Shown here in pieces: positions 73 to 17,474 of a DNA stretch of 19,006 nt. Origin of the DNA: Candidatus Omnitrophota bacterium (GTDB taxonomy: Bacteria > Omnitrophota > Gorgyraeia > B26-G9); assembly GCA_030630245.1 (NCBI GenBank), contig DAOVNL010000001.1, positions 1-19,006 on the forward strand. Reading direction: 5' to 3'. Positions within the stretch are counted from its first letter, which is position 1; each line of letters starts with the position of its first letter. The notes under the pieces are model-generated. The model ran no database searches. It was not told the DNA's origin and saw only the letters and a list, made by a program, of their open reading frames with translations. The position numbers and the translations under genes are program-made.

Positions 73-2490
73 CTATTTTGCTAAAGTTACGGCGATCGTT
101 GAACCAGGCGTAATTAAATATTTTTTTGAATTAACCTTGATCGGCAGTTTCCCGGCAACCGAGACATGTTTTTTCAAGGATATTTTAATCCTTGATTTTT
201 TGATATCAAAAGCCAATGACTGCCCCTTATAAAAAATATTAAATTTCATCCTGCGCCACTTGCGGGGCAATTTAGGGTTGACCTCAATTCCACTATCCGT
301 TACCTGGATACCGGCAAAACCTCTTATTGCAATATCCAGGGATCCTCCCATTACGCCGGCATGAATTCCTTCCGTTGTGGTTCCGCCCTGGGTATCATAT
401 ATGTCTGATTTTAAAACCTCTACAAACCAATCCCAGAATGCCTTTGCCTTGCCTACCTTTTGAGAAACAAAACAATGCACAACTTTACTCAGGGTCGAGC
501 CGTGAGAAGTACGCTTAATATAATAATCATAGTTCTTTTTCAAGAGCTTGCTATTAAAATTATATCCCGCTGCCTTAAAGATAGTCTCTACCTCTTCTAA
601 GGTCAATAAATAAAAAATCATCAATACATCTGCCTGCTTAGCCATCTTATAATTATCCGGAGACTTTCCTTCTGCTTTAAGGATCCTGTCCATGCGGTGT
701 ATATTTTTGTATTTTTTCTTATAGCGGGCCCAATCAAGCTCTTTAAGTTTAAAGTATCCCTTGAATTGAGCAATAATACCATTGCTGTCAATAATTATAC
801 GCATTTTACGTATGACGCGTTCCCATCGGCCTGTCTCATATTCGGTAAGTTTTAATTTTTTCTTAAGCTGCGCTGCTCTTTTTTTTGAAACTAATTTCAG
901 TATTTCTTGTGCTTTTTTAAGTGTCCAGACTATCAATACATTTGTATAAGCATTATCAATCAATCCCGGAAGAGAGATACCCGGGAATTTTTCATGAAAT
1001 TCATCCGGGCCCATAACCCCGCGCACATGATACTTTTTCTTCTTGGCATCATATTCGCATAAGCTGCATGCAAACTTGGCAATAGATAGAATTATCTCAG
1101 CGCCATATTTTTCCAGAAAGTCAAGATCATTAGTAACTCTCCAGTAATTCCACACATTATAAGAAATAGCAAAGGAAACATGTCTCTGGTTTCGGCTGTA
1201 ATCCGGCCCCCATTTGCCTGAGCGCGGGTTTAAATGCACGACTTGTGTTTCCTCTCTCCCGGAAGAACCGCTTTGCCAGGGAAACATCGCGCCTTTAAAT
1301 CCGTTATCTATCGCGTATTGCCTTGCCTTTTCCAATCGCTTATACCTGTATAAAAGCAGTGCCTTTGATATTTGCGGCATATGAAGATTAAAAAAGGGCA
1401 GGACAAAAATCTCGTCCCAGAAGACATGCCCGCGATATGCCTCTCCGTGCAAACCGCGTGCCGGCAGCCCGGCATCGATATCTTTATTATGGGGTGAAGC
1501 GGCCTGCAGCAAATGAAACATATGCAGCCGCAGAACCTGCTGAGAAAAAACATCCCCCTCTATCTCGATATCAAATTCATCCCAAAGCTTTTTCCAGGCC
1601 TTTGCGTGAAGCGTAAATAAAACATCGAACTTAGGCAGTTTTTTTGCCGCTTTGACCGCATCTAACTTTGCGTTTTTAACCCCTTTATCTTTGGACGTAA
1701 AAATGGAGACTGTTTTTTCTATGCTGCAAGTCTGATGCTTCTTGGCAAATATCCTGAATTCCTGTCCGACAACCTGGTTGCCGTGGCGAATAATCTCAAT
1801 TGTAGGCTTGAGCTCTTTTGCGCCGGAAAAAATTCTCAACTTTGCCGCTTCATACAGCTCGATCCTGGACTGGCTTGTTTTAACCCCCAGATAAACCCCG
1901 TTACGGGTAAATTTTCCCAGCACATGGGAACTCCAGTGATTGAAATTAAGCTGGCGGTACCGTTCAACATTCATGTTCAATACTGCCCCGTCCAGCATGG
2001 AACGCACACTTATATAATCACTGTAATTATCAGGAGTGATCTCATATTTTATTGCCGCAATATGCGGATTTGCCATACTCACAATTCTTGTTTCATGGAT
2101 CCATGTCCTGCGTCCATGCGGCATCTGGCACAATATCTTTCTGACAAACTTACCATAGCGCATATCAAGTTCCTGATGAAAAGAAAGAATTCTGGTAGCA
2201 GAAGGACTGAACCATACGCCGTCCCTGACCTTAAAAGTCAGATATGTCCAGTTAGGACAGTTTACCAGGTCTTCATTATAAATGGTTCTGCCCGCAATGT
2301 TTGTAGACAGCCGGTTGTATAAACCCGCGACATAAGTACCCGGATAATGCATTTCCGTGGGAACTGTTTCCGGTGCAGCGCCTCTTGTGCCGAAGTAACC
2401 GTTACCCAGAGTGCAAAGAACCTCGCGCAAACTCTCTTCTTCGGGTTCAAAACGTTTATAGATCAATTTCCATGGATGCTCTTTATGCAT
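73..2490 (-). CDS. GH65 family glycoside phosphorylase (trehalose or trehalose-6-phosphate phosphorylase-like)
   Basis: Members of GH65 split alpha-glucosidic disaccharides such as trehalose, maltose or kojibiose with phosphate, giving beta-glucose 1-phosphate. The protein has the family layout: an N-terminal beta-sandwich (about residues 10-265), an (alpha/alpha)6 barrel (about 310-690) and a short C-terminal beta domain. The motif GVMGPDEFHE carries the expected general acid, Glu497. Other family signatures are LGNGYFGTRGA near the N-terminus and RGHVFWDEIF. I prefer the ATG at 2490 (805 residues), preceded by GTAGAG at 9 nt. An upstream in-frame TTG at 2514 overlaps the previous stop codon by 4 nt but has its purine stretch directly against the codon. 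Either start leaves the gene translationally coupled to the HAD/OtsB fusion upstream. That neighbour points to trehalose or trehalose 6-phosphate as substrate rather than maltose, but substrate cannot be read from the sequence alone. Confidence 0.9.
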   Translation of the reverse strand: MHKEHPWKLIYKRFEPEEESLREVLCTLGNGYFGTRGAAPETVPTEMHYPGTYVAGLYNRLSTNIAGRTIYNEDLVNCPNWTYLTFKVRDGVWFSPSATRILSFHQELDMRYGKFVRKILCQMPHGRRTWIHETRIVSMANPHIAAIKYEITPDNYSDYISVRSMLDGAVLNMNVERYRQLNFNHWSSHVLGKFTRNGVYLGVKTSQSRIELYEAAKLRIFSGAKELKPTIEIIRHGNQVVGQEFRIFAKKHQTCSIEKTVSIFTSKDKGVKNAKLDAVKAAKKLPKFDVLFTLHAKAWKKLWDEFDIEIEGDVFSQQVLRLHMFHLLQAASPHNKDIDAGLPARGLHGEAYRGHVFWDEIFVLPFFNLHMPQISKALLLYRYKRLEKARQYAIDNGFKGAMFPWQSGSSGREETQVVHLNPRSGKWGPDYSRNQRHVSFAISYNVWNYWRVTNDLDFLEKYGAEIILSIAKFACSLCEYDAKKKKYHVRGVMGPDEFHEKFPGISLPGLIDNAYTNVLIVWTLKKAQEILKLVSKKRAAQLKKKLKLTEYETGRWERVIRKMRIIIDSNGIIAQFKGYFKLKELDWARYKKKYKNIHRMDRILKAEGKSPDNYKMAKQADVLMIFYLLTLEEVETIFKAAGYNFNSKLLKKNYDYYIKRTSHGSTLSKVVHCFVSQKVGKAKAFWDWFVEVLKSDIYDTQGGTTTEGIHAGVMGGSLDIAIRGFAGIQVTDSGIEVNPKLPRKWRRMKFNIFYKGQSLAFDIKKSRIKISLKKHVSVAGKLPIKVNSKKYLITPGSTIAVTLAK

Positions 2491-2510
2491 ATTTATTTTC
2501 TCTACTAATT

Positions 2511-4121
2511 TCAATCCTCTACCAATTGCTTGAACAGTTTGCCAACTTCATCCGGTGAAGCCAGGCGGAAACGAGCAGCGGATTTCCTTTCCTGATTACT
2601 TACAAGTATCCCCACTCCCCTGCTGTTTACAGTTCTGAAGGCGTCTTCGTCGGTTGTGTCATCACCGATATAAAAAACAGCATGGTCTTCCCAGGATAGA
2701 TCAAGAGCCTTCATTATCCAGCGCACTGCCTTTCCTTTGTTCCAGTCAATAGCAGGTAAAATCTCAAATACCATTTTCCCGTTCATCAGGCGCAACGCGT
2801 CATTTTCATCAACAACTTTTTCCACAACTTCTTTTATGGCAGGGATTTGTTCTTCTTTAACCAGACGGTAATGCACCGCGACACTGAACTTTTTTTCTTC
2901 GATGATCACTCCGTCTATACCGGAAAGAACATCTTTCAAAACTCCTGTCACTTTATCAACTACAGGGATGGTTTCTTTTGCCTTTGGCTGTATCATCGAG
3001 ACCCCTTTGCCTTGAATATCAAACCCATGGCTTCCGGCATAAAAAATCCCTTCAACTCCCGCAAGTTTTTCCACGTCCTTGCGCATTCTGCCGCTGACAA
3101 TAGCCGTGGTAAATTTAACGCAGAGCCTCTTTACAAGCTCCCTCATTTGTTCATTAATGACCGCAAGCTCCGGCCTATCGACTATCGGCGTAAGTGTCCC
3201 GTCATAATCGAGAAAAAATACTATTTTTTTATCCGACTTGAATATAGATTCTGGCACATCAAAATACTGCGGATTTATCGTTAAATCGTTTTTATCACCC
3301 TTGAATTTCGCGTATACGTTTTCAATTAATTTTTTGTCATTCCAGCAAGCAAATAAAGAAACCGGTTTCCTGTCAAACCATTCCTGTATTCTGTCCAGGC
3401 TTAACACTGAAAAAGAAGTTATCACTACATCTGCGCCGTTTTTATTCAGGGCTTCTATATTATCGCTTCTGGCAACCCCGACTACGAAAGCAAACCCACC
3501 ATTTCTGCCGGCCTGAACCCCTGATATGGCGTCCTCAAAAACCACACTGCGGCTAGGGAGCGTTCCCAGGTTCAAAGTAGCCTGAACAAATATATCGCCT
3601 TCGGGTTTTCCCTCCATGCCCATTTTCTCAGAGATGACGCCATCAACTCTGGTATCAAACAAATCCAGGACTCCGGCAATTTCAAGAATAAACTGACAGT
3701 TTTTAGAGGAAGAAACCACCCCGACCTTAACCCCGTTTTTTTTAAGATCGTTTATAAACTCAATACACGGCTTATACACTTCTACTCCGTTGATTTTAAG
3801 CACTTCTCTAAATTTTGCATTCTTTTTATTGCCAATTGAATATATTGTCTGTTTATCCGGGGTATCATCAGCGCTTCCCAGTGGCAGATGAATTCCTCTT
3901 GATTCTAAAAAGCTCTTTATCCCCTTAAGTCTTGGTTTACCATCGACAAAATTAAGATAATCCTGATGGGTAAATTCCTTAAAAGGCTCACCACAGGATT
4001 CTGCCTTTTCCTTTAAACATTCGTCAAAAACCAATTTCCAGGCATTCGCGTGAACAATAGCTGTCTTCGTTATAACACCATCCATGTCAAAAATGCCAGC
4101 TTCAAAAGAGTATTTTCCCAT
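2511..4121 (-). CDS. Two-domain protein: beta-phosphoglucomutase-like HAD + trehalose-6-phosphate phosphatase
   Basis: A 536-residue fusion of two HAD-fold enzymes. Residues 1 to about 245 are beta-phosphoglucomutase-like: the nucleophile motif is FDMDGVIT (Asp12, Asp14), with a cap region containing FVDGKPRLKG, then VVSSSKN and VFEDAISGVQAG. Residues about 290-536 are OtsB-like: FFLDYDGTLTPI (Asp305, Asp307), SGRMRKDV, GSHGFDIQG, DWNKGKAV and GDDTTDEDAF. Both catalytic sets look intact. The first half would interconvert beta-glucose 1-phosphate and glucose 6-phosphate; the second would dephosphorylate trehalose 6-phosphate in the cytoplasm. The start has a GAGAGG ribosome site 5 nt upstream. 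The stop codon overlaps the alternative TTG start of the GH65 gene. From memory, mycobacterial OtsB1 (Rv2006) has HAD, OtsB and GH65 domains in this same order in one polypeptide. No trehalose-phosphate synthase (OtsA) is in the window. Confidence 0.9.
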   Translation of the reverse strand: MGKYSFEAGIFDMDGVITKTAIVHANAWKLVFDECLKEKAESCGEPFKEFTHQDYLNFVDGKPRLKGIKSFLESRGIHLPLGSADDTPDKQTIYSIGNKKNAKFREVLKINGVEVYKPCIEFINDLKKNGVKVGVVSSSKNCQFILEIAGVLDLFDTRVDGVISEKMGMEGKPEGDIFVQATLNLGTLPSRSVVFEDAISGVQAGRNGGFAFVVGVARSDNIEALNKNGADVVITSFSVLSLDRIQEWFDRKPVSLFACWNDKKLIENVYAKFKGDKNDLTINPQYFDVPESIFKSDKKIVFFLDYDGTLTPIVDRPELAVINEQMRELVKRLCVKFTTAIVSGRMRKDVEKLAGVEGIFYAGSHGFDIQGKGVSMIQPKAKETIPVVDKVTGVLKDVLSGIDGVIIEEKKFSVAVHYRLVKEEQIPAIKEVVEKVVDENDALRLMNGKMVFEILPAIDWNKGKAVRWIMKALDLSWEDHAVFYIGDDTTDEDAFRTVNSRGVGILVSNQERKSAARFRLASPDEVGKLFKQLVED

Positions 4122-4187: not shown

Positions 4188-4215
4188 TATATAATCGGCA
4201 GGTCATTTGTGATAA
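4188..4215 (-). promoter_or_regulatory. Candidate promoter of the trehalose cassette
   Basis: On the minus strand TTATCA (4210-4215) and TATATA (4188-4193) are separated by 16 nt, about 65 nt upstream of the HAD/OtsB start codon. The match to sigma-70 consensus is only moderate and the surroundings are AT-rich. Confidence 0.3.
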
Positions 4216-4324
4216 CTTTAAAAACTGAATATTTTAAGTAACTGTGCGCAATTCCTGTAATTAATCATCTTTAATATAATAACACAAAAGGCCTTAAAAT
4301 AAAAATCGAATTTAATGATTTATA

Positions 4325-4570
4325 ATAATAGGTGAGTCAATGGAGGGGGTATCATATCTTCACGCGAAACAGATGAAGAGAATCTGTTTTGGCGGATTTA
4401 ATTAGTTAATTTTACATGGATGTTAAAATTAACTAATTTCCTCGGAGACTGACAGGATGTCAGTCGAGAATGAGCCAAAATAGATTCTCTTTAACTGTTT
4501 TAAACACTATGCGGTATATTTTAAACATAATGACCCCTGCCGCATTATCCCCTATTGACTCACCGATTAT
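4325..4570 (+). repeat. MITE-like inverted-repeat element with an internal three-way-junction fold (possible plus-strand RNA)
   Basis: This fills most of the 438-nt gap between the HEAT gene and the trehalose cassette. The ends are 17-nt inverted repeats, 4325-4341 and 4554-4570, matching at 16 positions (core GGTGAGTCAAT); the right copy contains the HEAT stop codon. Inside, 4366-4393 pairs with 4474-4501 as a 28-position helix with 24 Watson-Crick pairs, 3 G.U pairs and 1 mismatch. It encloses two hairpins: 4400-4414 with 4424-4438 (15 perfect pairs) and 4447-4454 with 4458-4465 (8 pairs). All three wobbles are G.U on the plus strand and would be C.A on the minus strand. TTTATA occurs next to the left end (4319-4324) and 2 nt beyond the right end (4573-4578), a possible but weak target duplication. 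No protein is encoded. It could be a small non-autonomous element, a structured RNA, or both. Confidence 0.55.
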
Positions 4571-7517
4571 GGTTTATATTTTCATTAAGCCAGTTCTGCC
4601 ATTTTTCTTTATCCTGTCCAAAGTAATGACCAGTTATATTCCTCAACGCCTCAACGGTATTTTCACGCACAAGCTTGTTTTCATCGTCTAAAACCCTGAT
4701 CAAAGGCCCCACAGCCCTAATATCCTTAATCTCACCCAGGGCAAGCGCAGCCTGATAACGTACAGACCAATGTATGTCATTTAAAGCATCAATAAGCGAA
4801 ACTACTGATTTAAGATCTTTAATCTCGGACAGAGCTAATGCCGTCTGGTAACGCACAGAGGTATCTTTATCTTTAAGCATTCCGATTAATGCGTCAACAC
4901 AAGAACGATGCTTTAATTCACCAAGAGCAAGCACGACCTCATAACGCACTGAGGAATCAGGGTCTTTTAACATGGGCATAAGATACTTTACCGCGCGAAG
5001 GTCTTTAAGTTTAGCCAGGGAACTTGTCGCCTTTATTCTCACCGATGAGTTTTTGTCTTTTAAATCCTTAATAAGCTTTTCAAAACCCGGATTACTCTCT
5101 ATAGTTTCCAGATCCGGCATCACCAAAATCTCCTCCTGCTTTTTCTCATCACTTTTTTCCGCCTCTGCTTTAGGATAACTCTCTTTAGAGTATACCTTGT
5201 CCTGTTTTCGGAGAATATCCGCGACATACTTGCGGGTTATAGGATTACTGGTTTTCAACTCATTTTTTAATTTGCCCCTGGTTTCTTTGCTGCGGAATTT
5301 TTCCAGGGTTCTGACAATTCTTTGCCTGATAGAATCATCAGTATCCTGCAGTCCCTTGATCAAAGCCTCCACGGTTTGTTTGTTTTCAAAATTAGCCAAG
5401 GCTTCCGCTGCTTTATAGCGCACTGTCCATTGCCGGTCTCTCAGAGCTCGTGTTAAAATTTCCACTGCCTGGGGCCGCCTTAATTTTCCCAAAGACTCCA
5501 TTACCTGTGAGCGTACAGCAGGATGTTTGTCATAGCTTGCATTGATCAACCCGGCAATAGCCCTCCCATCCTGTATTTCTCCCAATGACTTTGCCGCATG
5601 ATAGCGGGTTTTCCAATGCCTGTCTTTAAGCGCAATAAGCAGGGAATTTACCGCCCGGCTACTACCGATAATACCCAAACTCCAGGCAGCCTGATAACGC
5701 ACACTTGGGTGCGGATCTTTCAGAGCGTTTATTATATCAGAAACCGCCCTATCATCTTTTATTCGCGCCAGTGCCTTTAAACCATGAAATCGCACCAGCC
5801 AGTTTTCATCATCTAAAGCTTTAGTCAATGCACCAAATGCACGCGGGTTTTGCAGTTTTTCCAATGCCTTTACCGCATGATAACGCAAGCTCCAGTGCGT
5901 ATCATCAATTGCTTTACTAAGCGGTTTAAGCGCACGATTATCCCGGATATTACCAAGAGCCCATGCAGCATAACTGCGCACCACATGATCCTCATCCTTT
6001 AACGCTCTGATTAAAGGTTCAACAGCCCTGTTATCCTTTATCTTTCCCAATGCCCATGCGGCATAGTAACGCACCTGTCTTGCCCCATCGTAAAGCAACA
6101 CATTTATCAGCTCTTTTAGTGCCCTTTTATCACCGATTTGCCCGAAAATCCCGGCAATAAACATTCTAACCTGACGGTTTTCATGCTTTATATTTTCTAT
6201 AAGTGAAATATCCGTATTAACGCTGCATATTCTCACCAGTGCCCATGCGGCATAATTACCTACTATCTGATCTCTGTCGCTTAGTAGATTGATCAACCCT
6301 GGCACTGCCCTTGTTACTTTCATTTTACCCAATGCCCTTGCCGTATAACTTCTCACAATAGGATCACTATCCCGCATAGCAGCGATCAAGATATCTACAG
6401 CATCAGGATTTCTGCCTTGGCCTAACATCCAGGCTGCCTGACGGCGCAGCAGGATGCGGTCACTTTTTAAATATTTGATCAGCAGTTTTACGCTTTGCAG
6501 TTTGTCGATTTGTTCAATAGCATTTAGAGCCAGCTTGGCTAAAGAAATATCTTGTCCAACAGCCAGAACCCTCAAGGCGCTTATCGCGCTCTTATCACCT
6601 ATTTTAACCAGTGCCTTCACCGCTTCTTCGATATTGCTTATATTTCCGGCGCTGCCAAGCACATTAATAAGTTTTTCCGTAGCCCTTTTATCCTGCAGCT
6701 GCCCTAAAGCACTGATGACTTTATTGCGAATTCTTGCATATTTTCTCCTGTTTAAAACGCTGAGCAGAGCTCCTAAAGCCGCAGGGTCTTTAATATTACC
6801 CAATGCCTCTGCTGCTTTTTTTGACACATTCATGTCCTCATCAGCAGTTAATACTAAAGAGAGTGCTTTGACCGCAAGAGGACTTTTAATCTGCCCTAAA
6901 GCAATAACCGCGTATTTACGAATCTCAGGGTTTTCATCGTCAAGTACACCTATAAGCATTTCCACGCTATAAACGTCTTTTATATTGCTTAGCGCCACAG
7001 CAGCATTGTGTTTAAGCCAGGCATCAGGCTCATATAGGCTCATTATCAGCGCCTCAACCGCAAGACTGCTCTTCAGCTTGCCCAGCGTCTGGGCGGAAAC
7101 ACTGCGCATGAAGCTGTTCCCGTTTTTAAGTGTTTGTATTAAAAAAGGGACCGAGGCATCTCCGATATTGACCAGAGCCTTTAAAACTTCCTCAAATACA
7201 TAGCTCTTACCGGGGAGTATTTTCTCTTTACCAGAAAGCCAATTAATTTGAGCCTGATCATCAATTAATTTTATTAATGCGGGAACTGCTCCAGCAGCCT
7301 TCTCTTTCATCAATCCCAGATTATAGGCTGCCTCAGCACGAGTATTGGCATCCTGAGAGAGAAGCTTTTTAGACTCATTAACTACTTTTTCAGAAAGCTG
7401 CAAAGACAGAACGCTTTTCCCGTCTGCATCCGCAAAAGTATTTTTTGCAAATGAAATACCCCATGTTATATTAATTATCAACATAAGGCATATAGCATTT
7501 TTCCAAAATATCTTCAT
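4560..7517 (-). CDS. Exported HEAT-repeat (PBS-lyase-like) protein, 985 residues
   Basis: After an N-terminal hydrophobic signal segment (about residues 5-24, ending in SFAK) nearly the whole protein is a chain of roughly 30-residue HEAT repeats. The recurring patterns are D..VR..AA.ALG.I and D.RAV..LI.AL, and I estimate 28-30 repeats. A charged, lysine/glutamate-rich linker at about residues 770-800 splits the array into a long N-terminal and a short C-terminal block. No catalytic domain is visible. HEAT arrays usually act as protein-binding scaffolds; the signal segment places this one in the periplasm or at the envelope. The gene starts 36 nt after the DUF457-like gene, probably in the same transcript, with a weak GAAGAAG ribosome site. 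Its final codons (HNR-stop) lie inside the right terminal repeat of the neighbouring inverted-repeat element. A specific function cannot be given. Confidence 0.88.
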   Translation of the reverse strand: MKIFWKNAICLMLIINITWGISFAKNTFADADGKSVLSLQLSEKVVNESKKLLSQDANTRAEAAYNLGLMKEKAAGAVPALIKLIDDQAQINWLSGKEKILPGKSYVFEEVLKALVNIGDASVPFLIQTLKNGNSFMRSVSAQTLGKLKSSLAVEALIMSLYEPDAWLKHNAAVALSNIKDVYSVEMLIGVLDDENPEIRKYAVIALGQIKSPLAVKALSLVLTADEDMNVSKKAAEALGNIKDPAALGALLSVLNRRKYARIRNKVISALGQLQDKRATEKLINVLGSAGNISNIEEAVKALVKIGDKSAISALRVLAVGQDISLAKLALNAIEQIDKLQSVKLLIKYLKSDRILLRRQAAWMLGQGRNPDAVDILIAAMRDSDPIVRSYTARALGKMKVTRAVPGLINLLSDRDQIVGNYAAWALVRICSVNTDISLIENIKHENRQVRMFIAGIFGQIGDKRALKELINVLLYDGARQVRYYAAWALGKIKDNRAVEPLIRALKDEDHVVRSYAAWALGNIRDNRALKPLSKAIDDTHWSLRYHAVKALEKLQNPRAFGALTKALDDENWLVRFHGLKALARIKDDRAVSDIINALKDPHPSVRYQAAWSLGIIGSSRAVNSLLIALKDRHWKTRYHAAKSLGEIQDGRAIAGLINASYDKHPAVRSQVMESLGKLRRPQAVEILTRALRDRQWTVRYKAAEALANFENKQTVEALIKGLQDTDDSIRQRIVRTLEKFRSKETRGKLKNELKTSNPITRKYVADILRKQDKVYSKESYPKAEAEKSDEKKQEEILVMPDLETIESNPGFEKLIKDLKDKNSSVRIKATSSLAKLKDLRAVKYLMPMLKDPDSSVRYEVVLALGELKHRSCVDALIGMLKDKDTSVRYQTALALSEIKDLKSVVSLIDALNDIHWSVRYQAALALGEIKDIRAVGPLIRVLDDENKLVRENTVEALRNITGHYFGQDKEKWQNWLNENINHNR

Positions 7518-16778: not shown

Positions 16779-17120
16779 TTACTTTTTCTTTGCTTTTGCT
16801 TTCTTTTTTGTTTCAGAAGCCCTGTTTTTTCTTTTTCCCGCCTCTAATGCTTTTGATATCTTAGCTAGTTTTTTATTTAATGCGTCGATTTGCTTTTGAG
16901 ATCTATCCAAAATGCCCTCTGAGATCTGCTTCATCTTTTTCTCAAGATCTTTATCCAATTTTTTCGTACCCTGCAGCAAACGGTTAAGGACAGCTTTCTT
17001 ATCCTTTGCTTTGATCTGCCCTTTTTTAATCAGCGTATCCACAAGCTTTTCTGCTTTTTCTTTTGTCAGATTTGCTAACCCCACTCCCGCTAAAAGTATT
17101 TTTTCCAGTATTTCAAACAT
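16779..17120 (-). CDS. Phasin-like coiled-coil protein, copy 2
   Basis: A 113-residue helical protein of the phasin / PHA-synthesis-regulator-like type. It begins MFEILEKILLAGVGLANLTK, then a charged helical region with heptads (KLVDTLIKKGQIK, LDKDLEKKMKQI, QIDALNKKLAKISKAL). It ends in a lysine/alanine-rich tail (KKKAKAKKK) like those of PhaF- or histone-H1-like proteins. Such proteins coat storage granules or link them to DNA, but no polyhydroxyalkanoate gene is in the window, so that role is only inferred from similarity. GGGAGG lies 7 nt upstream. It is a tandem duplicate of the gene just upstream, identical at about 51 of the first 60 residues. Confidence 0.8.
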   Translation of the reverse strand: MFEILEKILLAGVGLANLTKEKAEKLVDTLIKKGQIKAKDKKAVLNRLLQGTKKLDKDLEKKMKQISEGILDRSQKQIDALNKKLAKISKALEAGKRKNRASETKKKAKAKKK

Positions 17121-17159
17121 TCCCTATCCTCCCTTTCTTTTAAGGTTGATAAACAAATT

Positions 17160-17474
17160 CTATTTTTTCTTTATTTTACCCTTTTTCTTTTCAATATGTA
17201 AGTCTTTCGCGACTTTTGCCAGTTTTTTCTTTAACATATCTATCTGCTTTTGAGAGCCGCTTACCATTTTTAAGGAAACCTGTTTAATTTTTTTTTCAAG
17301 ATCTTTATCAAACTTTTTAGTGCCCTTAAGCAGCCTGCTTAATACTGCCTTTCTGTCTTTTGCCTTGACCTGCCCTTTTTTAATCAGCGTATCTACCAGC
17401 TCTTCTGCTTTTTCCTTTGTCATGCTTGCCAGCCCGACTCCGGCTAAAATAATTTTTTCCAGAATCTCAAACAT
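17160..17474 (-). CDS. Phasin-like coiled-coil protein, copy 1
   Basis: A 104-residue paralogue of the following gene: the same MFEILEKIILAGVGLASMTK start, the same helical heptad region, and a shorter lysine-rich tail (KKKGKIKKK). Divergence between the copies is concentrated after residue 65 and in the tails, while the N-terminal 60 residues are nearly unchanged. The N-terminal halves also remain very similar in DNA, suggesting a fairly recent tandem duplication or ongoing conversion. The ribosome site is a G-run (GGGGGG) 7 nt from the ATG. A candidate promoter lies 27-56 nt upstream, so this is the first gene of the operon. Confidence 0.8.
   Translation of the reverse strand: MFEILEKIILAGVGLASMTKEKAEELVDTLIKKGQVKAKDRKAVLSRLLKGTKKFDKDLEKKIKQVSLKMVSGSQKQIDMLKKKLAKVAKDLHIEKKKGKIKKK

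Follow-up and report, generated by a model that had tools for sequence, protein, structure and literature searches.

The inverted-repeat element at positions 4325-4570 of the window (the whole stretch of 19,006 nucleotides that was analyzed, from a Candidatus Omnitrophota genome, G000) is real and is part of something larger than first reported: a structured module that occurs in several bacterial phyla and is here carried on MITE-like ends. The element is multicopy, has target-site duplications in its own genome and a conserved structure, and the loop sequences of the module are associated with csrA. We give about even chances to the reading that it is a mobile plus-strand RNA scaffold which docks CsrA where the host has CsrA.

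In the window, the element is bounded by inverted repeats and folds into a three-way junction, with the following parts:

4317-4324, no strand: left target-site duplication GATTTATA, identical to 4571-4578 at 7 of 8 positions
4325-4341, plus strand: left terminal inverted repeat, 16 of 17 positions pairing with 4554-4570; consensus by eye GTAATCGGTGAGTGAATGGGG
4366-4393, plus strand: 5' side of the outer helix, with 24 Watson-Crick pairs, three G.U pairs and one mismatch; covariation in the inner 14 pairs
4380-4487, plus strand: three-way-junction module by covariance model R1 (110.1 bits, the window itself being among the model's 26 sequences), with relatives in other genomes
4394-4399, plus strand: junction strand GGATTT, from alignment A1 and base counts in 188 copies
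4400-4438, plus strand: arm A hairpin, tip ACATGGATGT at 4414-4423
4440-4446, plus strand: junction strand CCTCGGA, a box partly imposed by the scan pattern
4447-4465, plus strand: arm B hairpin, tip ACAGGATGT at 4452-4460
4466-4473, plus strand: junction strand GAGAATGA; every base is shared by 161 to 179 of 188 copies, a conservation that the scan pattern and the model partly imposed
4474-4501, plus strand: 3' side of the outer helix, pairing with 4366-4393
4554-4570, minus strand: right terminal inverted repeat, 16 of 17 with the left repeat, holding the stop codon of a HEAT-repeat ORF
4571-4578, no strand: right target-site duplication GGTTTATA, 7 of 8 against GATTTATA

The earlier note on this DNA had described the 17-nt terminal repeats, the helix between them and two perfect stems inside the helix, and all of these were reproduced at the same coordinates: stem A has 15 bp (4400-4414 with 4424-4438) and stem B 8 bp (4447-4454 with 4458-4465). 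The three G.U pairs of the outer helix lie exactly at 4366.4501, 4375.4492 and 4386.4481, as described, and an A.A mismatch at 4373/4494 had been omitted. Within the junction, CTC (4441-4443) is able to pair with GAG (4466-4468). The amount of pairing indeed exceeds chance: as plus-strand RNA, 4325-4570 folds at -101.5 kcal/mol (z -11.2), and none of 200 shuffles folded as well; the same held for the minus strand (z -9.7, 0 of 200 shuffles). The HEAT-repeat ORF ends inside the element (stop codon at 4560-4562), which is antisense to both neighboring genes. The TATAAT at 4321-4326, read by the earlier note as a plus-strand -10 box, runs from the target duplication into the element, of which it takes in two bases, and recurs at none of the other left ends that were read in G000; we discarded it as a coincidence of the insertion junction. 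No terminator was found at the window copy, and its promoter-like sites (3, against 2.5 expected) are at chance level.

The impression that the element fits no RNA family was borne out by Rfam searches. At the gathering score the window gave three tRNAs only and no match to the element, and at E <= 5 the region 4200-4700 gave only MIR2606, SNORD73 and tsr24 (E 0.03-1.1), far under their cut-offs. Among 16 loci searched at the gathering score, a cobalamin riboswitch and a tRNA were recovered while the module was without a match, including to any known Csr/Rsm family. No precedent for the element was found in the titles and abstract openings of the open-access literature. Elsewhere in the window, a GH65 enzyme adjoins a fused HAD phosphatase with a trehalose-phosphatase domain (73-4121), perhaps a disaccharide phosphorylase operon, and two similar neighboring ORFs of 113 and 104 amino acids (MFEILEKI.LAGVGLA...; 16779-17474) may stem from a duplication.

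The earlier note had proposed a search for further copies, and these exist in the window's own genome as well as, for the inner part, elsewhere. The genome (1.14 Mb in 221 contigs, 69.5% complete) holds 29 BLAST pieces of the element, and the terminal-repeat motif TAATCGGTGAGTSAATG occurs at 24 places in it with at most two mismatches (control, 0). At least 10 copies are two-ended, with ends such as GTAATCGG or ATAATAGG, and measure 118 to 246 bp (227-246 bp with the junction, 118-122 bp without it). When one-base shifts were allowed in the comparison, the duplications flanking ten two-ended copies agreed at 8 of 8 positions in four (L030, L035 and twice in L029), at 7 of 8 in the window and at 3 to 6 of 8 in the other five. 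L030 is a long copy; L035 and both L029 copies are short and lack the junction. Three of the seven short junction-less copies hence carry their own exact 8-bp duplications at unrelated sites, and we therefore conclude that the ends, which behave like those of a MITE, do not need the junction in order to move. A parent transposase was sought with PF03050 (IS66-type) alone and in this 69.5% complete genome only, where it had no match, and IS66, whose elements have GTAA ends, was provisionally set aside as a parent on this basis. By eye, the Desulfurivibrio copies and those of G003 and G011 had no convincing target duplications. One short junction-less copy (C23:5051-5170) lies about 560 bp past csrA in G000, which may be coincidence. 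In five G011 loci (L313, L318, L321, L326 and L332), a second, unrelated repeat (TAGGGGC..GCGCCCCTAC) stands directly left of the modules.

Beyond this genome, it is the inner module that recurs. BLAST against 58 relatives gave matches in six, with other genera matching the inner part only, and copies in relatives have the same junction within different outer sequences. csrA is present in all six matched relatives and in four of the six family members that gave no match. Scanning the genome collection for the two boxes CCTCGNAG and CGAGAATGAGYC returned at least 117 stretches; because the pattern demanded these boxes, their invariance in alignment A1 is partly imposed. Among the matches listed, true elements with a stem and a second arm come from Desulfurivibrio, Desulfarculaceae, Thermodesulfovibrio and other Nitrospirae, Latescibacterota, Spechtbacteria/Parcubacteria, Sulfurimonas and Omnitrophota. 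The stem filter was passed by 58 of 209 places, some of them by chance (for example L281, L173, L154, L132 and L145). Carriage by phages was considered and dropped: 88 viral stretches fit the two-box pattern, but a single one, L281, got through the stem filter, and no junction is seen in its flanks.

Among 384 genomes drawn from the window's phylum (G001 was outside the draw), covariance model R1 found the module in 6; among 295 from the phylum to which the Thermodesulfovibrio bin G392 belongs, it found the module in 55. In these large searches only 10 or 13 candidates were scored per genome, under stricter filters. All 13 genomes behind the 16 named loci matched, twelve with 2 to 54 matches and one with a single match, although one match each was given by the choice of genomes with a matching locus. 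Together, these 13 genomes hold 264 matches, in hosts with or without csrA. In G390 and G398 there are several subfamilies that have unrelated outer stems and the same junction. Six Desulfurivibrio loci (G390 L372, L381, L383, L384, L387 and also L178) have, by eye, unique outer stems and common ends like CCGTTNNNGG ... CCNNNAACGG, unlike the major subfamily of G390. These ends were considered as attC-like, and the idea was rejected on the order of GTT and AAC; attC requires a particular order of the two, and the order here is wrong. Inverted pairs of modules about 45-155 bp apart, resembling REP doublets, were seen in G398 (C101:28283-28552 and C114:1-309) and in G395 (C126:3600-3984).

A covariance model was built and covariation was checked, both of which the earlier note had suggested, and the homologs show extensive compensatory change. 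The junction boxes GGRTTT, CCTCGGA and GAGAATGA are conserved and the stems around them vary. In the covariation test, for which the structure was written by hand and 26 copies were picked for diversity (alignment A1), 87.6% of cells were paired, compared to 58.9% after shuffling, and both sides had changed in 30 of 36 pairs. Doubly changed cells numbered 275 (88 shuffled), and the covariation value was 0.704, compared to 0.182 in shuffled and at most 0.19 in slid alignments. The three CTC/GAG pairs are invariant and hence uninformative on covariation. Alignments A2-A4 were fitted to the model, and R1 itself was built mostly from copies with GGA and may favor similar ones. Covariation alone cannot tell selection on structure from correction of palindromes.

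Both arm tips of the window copy have a motif like that bound by CsrA, with 37 nt from one GGA to the other. The SELEX consensus for CsrA, RUACARGGAUGU, mostly has its GGA in the loop of a hairpin, and a single dimer is able to span two sites that are separated by 10 to 63 nt (PMC7652899). Both tips present GGA in a hairpin loop within a sequence near this consensus. The genome has its own csrA (C23:4334-4489, E 6.6e-27) with fliW adjacent (C23:3943-4489 for the two), and the four distinct modules scored in it all have GGA in both loops. A fifth, weaker match (C91:437-525), outside the loop counts, has an arm A without GGA by eye. In two further places in G000 (C70:4487-4577 and C123:16-108) and in G001 L037, the tip of arm A is broken off or extended (TTTTACATG then CCTG...), as if the tip takes insertions.

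Loop sequences were compared with the presence of csrA in two sets of genomes. The first comprised 20 genomes, 11 of them with csrA, and loops were read in 19. Ten of the 11 csrA genomes have mainly GGA tips, the exception being Sulfurimonas G397 with CGA loops; in arm B of G011, five of eight copies have CGA. Mostly other loops were found without csrA, namely in the CPR bins G391 and G399 and in G071, G393, G394 and G400, and GGA loops despite csrA not being found occurred in G395 and G402. The second set was drawn from one phylum and contained 58 genomes (55 carriers plus G393, G394 and G402), 28 of them with csrA. Here, loops were read in G401 and in the 29 best-scoring of the 55 carriers (30 if G392, from the first set, is included); this choice by R1 score may favor copies like those behind R1. 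GGA in arm B was present in at least one copy read in 18 of 18 csrA genomes (in one of two in G524, G578 and G673) and in 1 of 12 genomes without csrA, G550 only.

Over 188 distinct copies from 49 genomes, with identical cores counted once and a few matches cut by a contig end included, GGA occupied both tips in 79 of 119 copies from csrA genomes versus 6 of 69 copies from genomes in which csrA was not found, a class that may partly reflect gaps in bins. At least one arm had GGA in 112 of 119 versus 25 of 69 copies, and 20 of those 25 come from G395, G402 and G550. Counted by genome, GGA was found in at least half of the copies read in 28 of 29 genomes with csrA and in 5 of 20 without (Fisher P = 1.4e-7, kinship disregarded); the five are G401, G394, G395, G402 and G550, and as the loop count adds one base on each side, G401 and partly G394 score as GGA through closing bases. 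In the 85 copies with GGA at both tips, the two motifs lie 30-42 nt apart (median 38). The module is 105-116 nt long in 115 of 119 copies from csrA genomes versus 27 of 69 others, and the fuller motif ACA(N)GGAYGT occurs at least once in 45 of 119 versus 8 of 69. The CGA and GCTG loops seen elsewhere had raised a doubt about the CsrA reading, which was lifted once loops were compared against csrA presence. Since fliW was found in 28 of the 29 csrA genomes and in none of the 20 others, the association does not separate the two genes. CsrA is favored by the motif; another factor of the csrA-fliW module could be read instead.

The association of loops with csrA is observed, with relatedness poorly controlled. 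A RecA tree of 42 genomes requires at least five changes for csrA and as many for GGA, with two independent contrasts on supported branches and five on all branches. In the supported contrasts GGA changed in the same direction as csrA in 1.8 of 2 on average and never in the opposite one, too few to test. recA was not found in G000, G391, G395, G397, G400 and G401, and in G071 only below threshold; it was found in G402 and G550. With recA also missing from G395, the absence of csrA there means little, and G402 and G550 stay as exceptions.

The earlier note had taken the wobble pairs, all G.U on the plus strand, as a hint of selection on a plus-strand transcript. Over the 188 copies, which are related by descent and not independent, G.U pairs outnumber A.C pairs 260 to 126. 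When split by helix, with A.C derived from the tallies in place of a per-helix line that counts some cells twice, the ratio is 167:36 in the outer helix, 65:65 in arm A and 28:25 in arm B. Because both arms are even, the wobble argument stands for the outer helix alone. The excess of G.U, together with GGA on the plus strand of the loops, favors a function of the plus strand as a single strand, most simply as RNA.

Judged by a simple ORF rule, 69 of 81 copies lie between genes, in either orientation. In genomes without csrA, 23 of 27 copies have a stop codon facing their 3' side; in G003 and G011, 3 of 16 do. In the other csrA genomes the 32 copies are split evenly, 16 facing a stop and 16 a start with that side. 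Orientation looks non-random in the genomes without csrA. From these counts, sense modules before a start are more common where csrA exists, which lineage may explain. A consistent 5'-UTR placement is not supported overall, orientation being mixed.

We propose that 4325-4570 is a copy of a MITE-like mobile element and that a structured RNA would be read from the plus strand of its inner 108 bases, in which two arms and an outer helix meet at a conserved three-way junction. In hosts with CsrA, most arm tips show GGA, frequently within A(N)GGA, and the roughly 38 nt between the two could be bridged by one CsrA dimer. Transcripts running through the plus strand of the module would then dock CsrA, each copy may act as a local CsrA-binding site or as a titrator of CsrA, and the ends would carry the module around the genome. 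Docking of CsrA accounts for the tip motif, the spacing, the narrow length and the link to csrA. It leaves unaccounted for the junction core, which persists without csrA, and the mixed orientation. More tentatively, with perhaps a minority chance of being right as a whole, we suggest a mobile family of several phyla with a prefabricated CsrA dock, in which a fixed junction keeps two A(N)GGA hairpins apart by a distance that suits one dimer. Insertion would give the CsrA regulon a site or titrate CsrA; without CsrA the tips would lose the motif and the arms their fixed length, and the core would have a second, CsrA-independent function.

A different view of the same fold, which we consider rather unlikely, is that it acts as single-stranded DNA: a hairpin-binding transposase (HUH, of the REP-associated kind) would recognize the junction during transposition, and the GGA tips would simply be stable DNA hairpin loops. 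The subfamilies of G390 and G398 look as if the junction were recognized, sharing it despite unrelated outer stems, and the close pairs in opposite orientation (G398 C101 and C114, G395 C126) and the intergenic placement of copies in either orientation also suit this view. However, the exact duplications around three of seven short junction-less copies (L029 twice, L035) fit an enzyme acting on the ends, and DNA folding does not predict that loop sequence and module length track csrA.

This tracking equally argues against an ordinary MITE whose palindromes are matched by template switching between arms, so that compensatory change would arise without selection on RNA. We regard this as improbable, although the repeat is MITE-like with target duplications and covariation by itself is what such correction would also leave. 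The mostly unpaired junction boxes recur across phyla and are not a product of palindrome correction, and the outer helix has its strong excess of G.U over A.C, whereas correction of arms is strand-neutral. The earlier note had treated MITE and functional RNA as alternatives; the data uphold the MITE-like ends with 8-bp duplications as well as a widely conserved structured module, and suggest both at once in place of the either/or. Quite improbable, finally, is that the copies are separate genes for a CsrB/RsmZ-like sponge RNA, multiplied across the genome and each having a promoter and a terminator of its own. The presence of csrA in the genome and of several GGA motifs in the element, two in hairpin loops, would fit such a gene; against it, no terminator was found at the window copy and its promoter-like sites are at chance level, flanks differ between subfamilies, and the module matches no Rfam family.

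Compared to known systems, the element resembles bacterial MITEs in its terminal inverted repeats, in the 8-bp duplications at half of the two-ended copies, in having no gene that we could see and in its many copies. Unlike them, it carries a three-way-junction module that is found in several phyla with unrelated ends. With the sponge RNAs CsrB, CsrC and RsmX/Y/Z it shares GGA hairpin loops, hosts with csrA and a spacing that suits one CsrA dimer; it differs in being a dispersed repeat on mobile ends with one fixed three-way junction and a conserved core, in occurring also where csrA was not found and in its lack of an Rfam match. REP and BIME sequences are likewise dispersed palindromes, some in inverted pairs (for REP, excerpts of PMC2817692 and PMC3733652), but the element is about 110-250 bases long compared to the 20-40 of REP and has a three-way junction. 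REP/BIME have GTAG or CGTC at one end, and the ends of the family in the window's genome lack GTAG.

Many bacteria use CsrA as a global regulator, and most of what is known about its sponge RNAs comes from Gammaproteobacteria. In excerpts of PMC4894983, Campylobacter jejuni is described as lacking antagonizing small RNAs. If our reading is right, a dispersed CsrA-type RNA module in bacteria with csrA and fliW would let transposable elements rewire a post-transcriptional network in a new way, and the 264 matches in 13 genomes, with csrA present or not, would offer many candidate sites at which this can be tested. Even if CsrA is the wrong partner, a conserved three-way junction that belongs to no Rfam family recurs in unrelated phyla, and its partner is wanted.
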